The notes under the pieces were generated by a model, which did no database searches, was not told the DNA's origin, and saw nothing but the letters and a program-made list of their open reading frames with translations. Positions 22,391 through 23,728 of a stretch of DNA of 64,000 nt are shown piece by piece. Every line of letters starts with the position of its first letter. Position 1 is the first letter of the stretch. The DNA lies in assembly GCF_018326005.1 (NCBI RefSeq), contig NZ_AP021903.1, positions 801,001 to 865,000 on the forward strand, given 5' to 3'. Both the position numbers and the translations under genes were made by a program. Source of the stretch: Pseudomonas sp. Seg1 (GTDB taxonomy: Bacteria > Pseudomonadota > Gammaproteobacteria > Pseudomonadales > Pseudomonadaceae).

Positions 22391-22422
22391 CAGTTTTTCA
22401 GCAGGTTTACCGCGTCATCGTT

Positions 22423-22448
22423 CATCGCTGGCAAGCCAGCTCCCACAG
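22423..22448. repeat. Single REP arm (CTGGCTTGCCAGC type)
   Basis: catcgctggcaagccagctc followed by ccacagg. It is unpaired and is immediately followed by four 53-bp repeats whose units end in degenerate copies of this arm. Confidence 0.75.
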
Positions 22449-22640
22449 GATTTGCATCAGTCTTGGGTTTGCACATGAACCTGGGGAGCCAGCTGCCAGG
22501 GGATTTGCATCAGATCTTGGATCTGCAAATGAACCTGGGGAGCCAGCTGCCATGGGATTTGCATCAGTCTTGGGTTTGCACATGAACCTGGGGAGCCAGT
22601 TGCCACAGGATTTGCATCAGTCTTGAATTTGCACACGACC
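22449..22640 (+). repeat. Four tandem ~53-bp repeats derived from a REP element
   Basis: Units start at 22449, 22502, 22556 and 22609 with gatttgcatcag; spacings are 53, 54 and 53 bp. Units 1-3 continue tttgcacatgaacctgggg then agccagctgcca; the last is partial and runs into a REP at 22642. The agccagctgcca part is a mutated copy of the REP arm just upstream. There are no unique spacers, so it is not CRISPR. An open frame through it encodes only a repetitive peptide and is not called. Confidence 0.85.
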
Positions 22641-22641
22641 C

Positions 22642-22671
22642 CTGTGGGAGCGGGCTTGCCCGCGATGAGGC
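22642..22671. repeat. Single REP arm (GGGCTTGCCCGC type)
   Basis: ctgtgggagcgggcttgccc followed by gcgatgaggc, closing the 53-bp repeat block. No inverted partner of the same type is nearby. Confidence 0.8.
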
Positions 22672-22689: not shown

Positions 22690-23023
22690 ATCAGTTGTTT
22701 AAATATGTGTGGATTTACCGGAACTGTCCCACAAGGTTTTCAGGTTGTCCGTCGGACGTGCGCTCACTAGTCTTGGGCGGTCGCTGACCTCTCAGCGATC
22801 GGGTGTGGAAACCTGAATTCTAAGTAGATGCACTGCATCAGCACCGTAATCGTTGCCGACGTCTTCGTTCGTCTGCAAACTGCGTCGCGGCGGCTGTGCG
22901 TGGGCAGACTTCGGTCTGGCCGGTTGCCTACTTATCGGTTTTCCACCCCGCGTACAGCTGCCACCTTTTTATCGTGTGGAAACGATCGGGAGGTGGCTCC
23001 AACAGCCAAGTAGGAGCTTTTTC
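22690..23023 (+). promoter_or_regulatory. Structured leader of the DUF6124 gene (candidate regulatory RNA)
   Basis: ~330 bp of strongly patterned DNA before the DUF6124 start. A 10-bp hairpin with a 4-nt loop lies at 22778-22801. The 10-mer GTGTGGAAAC occurs at 22803 and 22974, and an approximate complement (gttttccac) lies between them at 22938. CAGAC-TTCG-GTCTG at 22905-22918 is a UUCG tetraloop hairpin. The Shine-Dalgarno GGAG (23013-23016) can pair with gctcc at 22996-23000, followed by TTTTT at 23018-23022; alternatively ggag at 22989-22992 pairs with the same ctcc and frees it. Possible RNA switch; inference from sequence only. Confidence 0.5.
22828..23013 (+). CDS. Possible 61-aa upstream ORF in the DUF6124 leader
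   Basis: Open frame of 61 codons (start MHCISTVIVADVFVRLQ, end DREVAPTAK) lying wholly in the structured leader. Its TAG stop at 23011-23013 shares a base with the GGAG Shine-Dalgarno of the DUF6124 gene, an arrangement compatible with translational coupling. It has a weak ribosome-binding site, many Arg/Cys codons and no recognisable domain. It may simply be an open frame over structured RNA; recorded because of the stop/SD overlap. Confidence 0.25.
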   Translation: MHCISTVIVADVFVRLQTASRRLCVGRLRSGRLPTYRFSTPRTAATFLSCGNDREVAPTAK

Positions 23024-23386
23024 ATGGACAAACTGATTCCCGACCCACCCCTCGAAACCACCACCCCGCTCGAAGAAATCCTGCGCGCCGAGGACCAGGC
23101 CAGAAACCGCGAAGCCATCAAACGCGCCCTCGATTTCTACCTCTGCCCCAATCCCGTCAAACCCCGCCAACCCAGCACGATGTTCCTCGTCAACCCGAGT
23201 GTCGACACCGAAAGCCTGCTCGCGCACGCTTGCGAATCACTGGCCAGTGCCAGCGCGGCGACCAGCAACTTCGCCAATGAACTGAGCGGCACGCAGCGCA
23301 GCACGGTGTTGGGCATCCAGCAGGTTGTCATGCTCGCCGAACTGGCGGTGAACCGCGCGCTGGACCGGGTGGACCCACAGACCTGA
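23024..23386 (+). CDS. DUF6124 family protein
   Basis: 120-aa cytoplasmic protein of a Pseudomonas-restricted family. N-terminal Pro/acid-rich part (DPPLETTTPLEEIL), then the family core RALDFYLCPNPVKPRQPSTMFLVNPSVDTESLLAHACESLASASAA (split here by description only) and a C-terminal VVMLAELAVNRALDRVDP helix. The ATG at 23024 has AGGAG 7-8 nt upstream; the frame is open further left but that is the structured leader. Function unknown. It stands alone between repeats. Confidence 0.85.
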   Translation: MDKLIPDPPLETTTPLEEILRAEDQARNREAIKRALDFYLCPNPVKPRQPSTMFLVNPSVDTESLLAHACESLASASAATSNFANELSGTQRSTVLGIQQVVMLAELAVNRALDRVDPQT

Positions 23387-23728
23387 TCCGCAGGTTTACC
23401 GCGTTATCGTTCATCGCTGGCGAGCCAGCTCCCACAAGGTCATGCGCTGATTCAAGACTGATGGAAAACCTGTGGGAGCTGGCTTGCCAGCGATGAGGCC
23501 CTTTCAGCCATCCCCAAACTTGTTGCCTGTCCGTTCTGCGTCGGAGCCGCCGCAGTGGGCTATCGAAAAATTGACGCCATCACGTTGACATTTTAATGGT
23601 GTCGAAATGATGGCTCGTGTAGATTGCGCCGCGCCCGGATCAGATGAACTGGTGGGCCGGTAGGGATGCCAAAGTGAATGCGTGAACCCTGCTGAAACCG
23701 TATTTGCTGTTTTGGAAGGGAATCTCGC
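23387..23728. other. Intergenic region before the autotransporter
   Basis: 342 bp containing a REP pair (23412-23500) and, to the right, ~200 bp with an AT-richer stretch around 23565-23610 that probably holds the autotransporter promoter. No further gene seen. Confidence 0.5.
23412..23500. repeat. REP inverted pair (CTGGCTTGCCAGC type)
   Basis: catcgctggcgagccagctc at 23412 faces tgtgggagctggcttgccag ending near 23500. Confidence 0.9.

Follow-up and report, generated by a model that had tools for sequence, protein, structure and literature searches.

We found the structured leader upstream of a DUF6124 gene, in the 64-kb stretch of Pseudomonas DNA analysed here (the window), to be a C4 antisense unit, an established RNA class. 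The DUF6124 gene very probably silences itself by means of this unit (probability of about 0.86). Sequence comparison shows the class, layout and pairing of the unit and the specificity of that pairing. What was not expected is that C4 has expanded across the chromosomes of the genus into many self-matched pairs; no description of this was found in the literature searched, most subscription journals lying outside it.

C4 layout of the DUF6124 leader

The window was scanned with Rfam release 15 at gathering thresholds, and only two matches were obtained, both within the DUF6124 leader. Positions 22883–22968 matched C4 antisense RNA (RF01695; 69.3 bits against a cut-off of 45) and positions 22767–22819 matched c4-a1b1, the upstream target of C4 (RF03163; 51.2 bits against a cut-off of 46.7). 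A preliminary description of this DNA, made from the sequence alone, was right in reporting a structured and regulatory leader and wrong in holding that no described RNA class covered it, as these two families do.

All features of the unit lie on the plus strand. The reported 10-bp hairpin at 22778–22801 was present with 9–10 bp and is the first stem of a1b1, and the CAGAC-TTCG-GTCTG hairpin at 22905–22918 is the P2 hairpin of C4 with its TTCG tetraloop, as placed by the Rfam alignment and the fold. The 10-mer GTGTGGAAAC, noted before at 22803 and 22974, occurs at both places as b1 (22803–22812) and b2 (22974–22983), and the approximate complement noted near 22938 is b' (TTTTCCAC, 22939–22946) at the end of P3 and in the junction. 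The P3 hairpin loop contains a' (CCTACTTA, 22927–22934), which is complementary both to a1 (TAAGTAG, 22821–22827) and to a2 (AAGTAGG, 23008–23014), the latter overlapping the Shine-Dalgarno sequence of the DUF6124 gene (23024–23386, 120 aa; PF19619, 87.9 bits against a cut-off of 27). Both targets that characterise a C4 unit were thus found, a1b1 by an RF03163 score over its cut-off and a2b2 at the ribosome-binding site by the two segments above and by family-wide permutations (see below). Segments a' and b' of C4 have complements both in a1/b1 and in a2/b2, which makes these pairings mutually exclusive; the preliminary description was right that the leader has mutually exclusive pairings.

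The predicted mature C4 RNA extends from 22889 to 22965, from a GGC to an ACC past the stem, with its processing proposed after P1/P7. GG[CT] was found at the predicted mature 5' end in all 38 C4 copies of the source genome, and past the C4 stem ACC was found in 34 of them and TCC in the other four. An RCC motif is read by RNase P, and ACC is such a motif (PMC12710915). The predicted length from GG to ACC is 77 nt, equal to the figure of about 77 nt given for the C4 of P1/P7 (PMC5320573), and we infer by this analogy that RNase P would process the leader to a 77-nt C4 RNA.

Other elements that had been proposed around the ribosome-binding site fared less well. The stem sequestering the Shine-Dalgarno sequence (GCTCC, 22996–23000, with GGAGC, 23013–23017) can form here as a possible hairpin over 22996–23017 and is partly conserved in the paralogs, with at least 5 bp in 11 of 37 leaders against a mean of 1.5 and a maximum of 5 in shuffled upstream sequence; it was absent when the whole leader was folded to minimum energy. 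The TTTTT following GGAGC is present here and, by eye, in L132 and L133, and it is not general, being found in 0 of 36 other target leaders of the source genome. The alternative stem with ggag at 22989–22992 found little support in relatives and was set aside, GGAG occurring there in 2 of the 29 other rows of alignment A6 (L145 and L147, by eye). We also considered the C4 stem with a T-run as an intrinsic terminator and rejected it, as five T residues were found here, in L128 and in L144, and in none of the 37 other C4 copies of the source genome. By eye, REP-like repeats (GCTGGC..GCCAGCTCCCAC) were seen on both sides of the cassette at 22420–22660 and 23390–23495.

C4 copies, promoters and pairing codes

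The source genome (6.63 Mb, a single contig) gave at least 38 C4 matches, all over the cut-off, with 150 of 1777 first-look candidates scored, and 34 c4-a1b1 matches, 17 of which were over the cut-off. The C4s were located at 35 dispersed places with a median spacing of 132 kb. DUF6124 gave 37 matches (36 over the cut-off), 31 of which were within 600 bases of a C4 when lower coordinates were compared. Among 37 proteins downstream of C4, defined by the first suitable ATG, 30 were DUF6124, one was DUF3077 and one was Bro-N; C4s preceded DUF6124 genes in 31 cases, one of these genes being frameshifted. The 38th C4 (c3470875) had no assigned gene start and was excluded from the target tests. BLAST matches were obtained for 36 copies; in 22 of these the median left homology end was 149–240 nt before C4, and right ends clustered near the stop codon, which suggests a compact cassette of ~650–700 bp as the unit.

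Several individual loci deserve mention. A C4-linked DUF6124 copy at G000 C1:2420831-2421321 appears frameshifted, and its a'/a2 match is weak too. The DUF6124 gene at G000 C1:6408469-6408887 (L116, 470–921) has an a1b1 hairpin of 49.6 bits and no C4 up to E = 1; its b site fits the b' of two C4s, one 15 kb away at 6423976 and one at 4281094, the latter with the best overall score, so this gene may be a trans target. Another C4-less DUF6124 gene (G000 C1:4205112-4205515, L117) is directly upstream of the PrrF sRNA (RF00444, 158 bits). At G000 C1:6336052-6336714 (L120), a C4 precedes a Bro-N antirepressor-like gene, the neighbours of which are apparently housekeeping xerC-, amtB/glnK- and comM-like ORFs by eye, with no evident prophage.

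Two promoter elements were shared among the loci. The conserved class B element CCCACAAGGTTTTCAGGTTGTCCGTCGGACG (22728–22758 in the window) had seven genome copies at up to three mismatches, all upstream of a C4 on the same strand with lower coordinates 153–210 bases apart, and the other element, TACGCCAGAATCCGCCGGCTTGTGCG, was found at 20 genome places at up to three mismatches, each ahead of a C4 and on the C4 strand. Taken together, the lower coordinates of both elements were 135–212 bases from C4, and reversed-pattern controls for each gave no match in the genome. A putative sigma70-like promoter at 22745–22773 consists of a −35 TTGTCC (22745–22750) and a −10 TAGTCT (22768–22773) separated by 17 bp. 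The pattern TTGnnn-16/18-TAnnnT was found ahead of a1b1 in 28 of the 38 C4 loci, with no match in the other 10, against 9 of 412 background flank windows. Inverted repeats that are possible operators occur near this promoter at 22722–22757, where GTCCGTCGGAC adjoins the −35; sister loci such as c5390951 carry an AACCTT-N5-AAGGTT inverted repeat, one arm of which is altered in the window.

The leaders of the other DUF6124 genes were compared for covariation, which was evaluated by permutation and pair counts, not by R-scape, and the outcome was positive. Pairing windows in 37 loci were fixed by distance and not by fit, and 20,000 permutations were run; the scores are ungapped complementarities and not measured affinities. 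The a'/a2 score had a mean of 21.1 for cognate and 13.1 for other targets (z = 16.5), and the corresponding b'/b2 means were 18.7 and 13.3 (z = 13.3); b'/b1 and a'/a1 gave z of 13.2 and 5.8, respectively, each of the four being matched in 0 of 20,000 permutations. In the wrong-region controls, z was 0.1 when a' was scored on the b2 region and −1.9 when b' was scored on the a2 region, and a reverse-complemented a' gave z = 0.2. A reversed a' was not flat (z = 4.2, 3 of 20,000), and base composition therefore contributes somewhat to the a' scores.

With a and b combined (z = 20.1), the own target was uniquely best for 30 of the 37 C4s and the own C4 for 33 of the 37 targets, and 28 of the 37 pairs were uniquely best in both directions. 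Only 1 of the 1332 non-cognate pairs reached the cognate median and 17 reached the lower quartile. For the window's a' alone, the cognate target ranked second and the cognate C4 fourth among 37, and both were first when b' was added. In the 33 source-genome loci where b1 was placed by Rfam, including that of the window, 0.84 of the b1–b' cells were paired (0 of 5000 row shuffles), where the best other register gave 0.76.

The result was reproduced in 60 C4 loci from 60 other Pseudomonas genomes, one per genome and biased to high scores in being drawn from the best-scoring of the genus C4 matches, where z was 20.6 for a'/a2 and 11.2 for b'/b2 (0 of 5000 each), with controls at 2.2 for a' against the b2 region (83 of 5000) and −2.5 for the other. 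Among the window's leader and its close relatives, 30 in all, a', a1 and a2 varied in concert by eye, as did b', b1 and b2. The a'/a1/a2 sets included CTACTTA/TAAGTAG/AAGTAGG, CTGCTAA/TTAGCAG/AAGCAGG and CTATGAC/GTCATAG/GTCATAGG, and the b types GTGGAAA/TTTCCAC and GTGAGAA/TTCTCAC were swapped jointly at b1, b' and b2. The window gene and most of its chromosomal paralogs are predicted to use their own pairing codes. The earlier reading of a structured leader predicted to control DUF6124 translation at the ribosome-binding site was right, and the structure exceeds chance by the two Rfam scores over cut-off and by the b1–b' covariation.

Distribution and downstream proteins

C4 was found in 138 of 149 Pseudomonas genomes (137 over the cut-off) and DUF6124 in 118 (117 over the cut-off); in this survey up to 27 candidates were scored per genome, and many genomes reached this limit. 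DUF6124 was present in 0 of 11 C4-less genomes against 118 of 138 C4-bearing genomes (Fisher p = 6e-9, with kinship ignored). Among 274 genomes of the class, 18 including the source genome had C4, with one to six copies in the other 17, and DUF6124 was found in none of the 274 other than the source genome. DUF6124 was found in 1 of 50,697 phage records and in 0 of 72,556 plasmids. The leader DNA of the window matched two phage records, and that of the Bro-N type C4 matched 32 of the 50,697, 31 of which are named Pseudomonas phage.

The genes behind the 60 genus loci were chosen by a script, some choices of which look wrong, and after five shorter ones were dropped gave 55 ORFs of at least 40 aa, comprising 13 DUF6124, 9 DUF3077 and 6 Bro-N. 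About 18 of the 55 form by eye one family of 52–57 aa. This conserved family is found behind many of the best-scoring genus C4s (L057, L058, L072, L075 and others), including those of G008 and G030, which have a single C4 match; the L057 and L056 proteins had no Pfam match.

The AlphaFold model of DUF6124 (mean pLDDT 80) has a helix at the N terminus and, at the C terminus, a hairpin of helices predicted with confidence. It had no fold match at E ≤ 0.001 in the PDB or among viral models, and the sequence had no PDB match at E ≤ 0.1. No paper in the literature searched names DUF6124. The DUF3077 model was poor (pLDDT 62), and the hhalign comparison of the two families (probability 56%, E 1e-4) is only suggestive of a relation; the 89–110 aa group showed no relation. 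No match was obtained in PADLOC (five proteins) or NCBIfam (six proteins). Thirteen PHROGs were matched, each by a single one of the 37 members, which we took to be the Bro-N protein. A phage origin of DUF6124 was rejected, given the single phage record, the lack of plasmid records and the lack of a PHROG match for the window protein.

Proposed mechanism and comparison with known systems

By analogy with the C4 of phages P1/P7, RNase P most likely frees a 77-nt C4 RNA that blocks DUF6124 translation. A single RNA comprising a1b1, C4 and the DUF6124 mRNA would start at the promoter just upstream, and the 77-nt C4 RNA, kept together by a 16-bp stem, would be excised from it by RNase P. The P3 loop a' and the junction b' would then bind a2/b2 at the ribosome-binding site of DUF6124, turning translation off, and the upstream a1b1 would compete for a'/b'. 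Since a C4 cut from its own leader would block the ribosome-binding site of that leader, the gene would silence itself. The transcription start, the processing and the translational block are all inferred steps.

The presence of a1b1 and a2b2 on one RNA, both complementary to a'/b', would also suit an attenuator-like switch in cis, in which a C4 that is never released leaves the gene on when bound to a1b1 and turns it off when bound to a2b2, and a1 fits where the a2 match is imperfect in 7 of the 30 relatives by eye (L134, L136, L138, L139, L144, L145 and L147). We consider this quite unlikely, given that the RNase P-like ends are kept (GG[CT] in 38/38 and ACC in 34/38 copies), that the C4 of P1 is called trans-acting (PMC8546580) and that the C4-like RNAs of Acinetobacter baumannii look processed and abundant (PMC5320573).

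A type I toxin-antitoxin-like pair, with C4 as the RNA antitoxin and DUF6124 as a growth inhibitor, is compatible with C4 silencing and concerns the role of the protein. We give this reading little credence, as the protein of 120 aa has a predicted helical hairpin, C4 is on the same strand as DUF6124, PADLOC gave no match and the family is nearly absent from phage records and absent from plasmids, even though an antisense RNA adjoins a small-protein gene in many dispersed copies, each with its own specificity. A prophage remnant without a present role would accord with the first description of C4 in phages P1/P7 and with the 32 phage records carrying Bro-N type leader DNA; it is highly improbable in view of the 35 dispersed sites, the same scarcity of DUF6124 in phages and plasmids, the 28 of 37 pairs still best for each other and the promoter elements shared among the loci. 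The preliminary description was wrong in naming a riboswitch, thermosensor or attenuator as the kind of element. A riboswitch or thermosensor is hardly credible, since Rfam, which covers described families, gave C4 and a1b1 and no riboswitch or thermometer family up to E = 1 and the covariation tracks antisense against target segments, with the partly conserved Shine-Dalgarno hairpin (11/37 leaders) in favour of a riboswitch or thermosensor.

In C4 silencing as proposed here, an RNA described for phage immunity as a rule precedes the genes of a large chromosomal family, which was found in no other genus sampled, and within one cell 28 of the 37 pairs of antisense and target are predicted to prefer each other only. 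These loci are a natural test bed for specificity among paralogous antisense RNAs, and orthogonal regulators of translation might be drawn from them. They also open a first way to the study of DUF6124 and DUF3077, the function of which, if they are silent by default, would be visible only without C4. A wider proposal, tentative and on balance unlikely, is a Pseudomonas private-key regulon, namely dozens of self-silenced cassettes of C4 and a small protein (DUF6124, DUF3077, Bro-N and others) with common promoter elements and largely orthogonal codes. It might persist as an infection sensor, in which a phage or satellite RNA titrating or mimicking one C4 would free only the protein under that C4, or through the silencing of incoming C4-controlled phage genes by the C4 set.

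In type I toxin-antitoxin systems, an antisense RNA represses the translation of a small toxic protein that is usually membrane-active. The predicted repression of small-protein translation by an antisense RNA is alike here, whereas C4 is a same-strand RNA cut from the leader and the protein is larger (120 aa). The closest likeness is to the C4 of P1, which is known for a second target, RNase P ends and a length of 77 nt. The Rfam comparison (RF01695, RF03163) gave the same secondary structure and upstream a1b1 as in P1/P7, and the a'/b' pairing with a target at the ribosome-binding site, the RNase P-like ends and the 77 nt are likewise shared (PMC5320573, PMC12197685). In contrast to P1/P7, where C4 sits ahead of icd/ant and at immI controls the phage antirepressor ant, the gene here is DUF6124, without a PHROG match, and the loci are chromosomal, with at least 38 copies in the source genome that have separate pairing codes and shared promoter elements; a Bro-N antirepressor-like C4 version is present elsewhere in the source genome. 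We named the variable loop a' after PMC5320573, according to which, in P1/P7, it is b' that covers the ribosome-binding site, with a' bound farther upstream, and four differing bases in this region prevent cross-reaction of the P1 and P7 C4 RNAs. In the present leader the two roles are exchanged, the variable P3 loop facing the Shine-Dalgarno sequence and the junction pairing upstream of it, which points to a difference either in labels or in geometry.

Weinberg et al. 2010 (PMC2864571) predicted C4 and c4-a1b1 motifs in Proteobacteria and phages, the portion of that paper covered here making no mention of DUF6124, copy number or matched codes, and C4 has been predicted in Pseudomonadales (PMC5320573). 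The nearest precedent for the expansion is A. baumannii, the Group 1 C4-like sRNAs of which are likewise many per genome, with a variable a' loop and processing inferred from RNA-seq (PMC5320573). In the portion of PMC5320573 covered, their cognate target gene is unnamed, whereas here each of the 37 C4s analysed, out of 38, precedes a gene with a target site.
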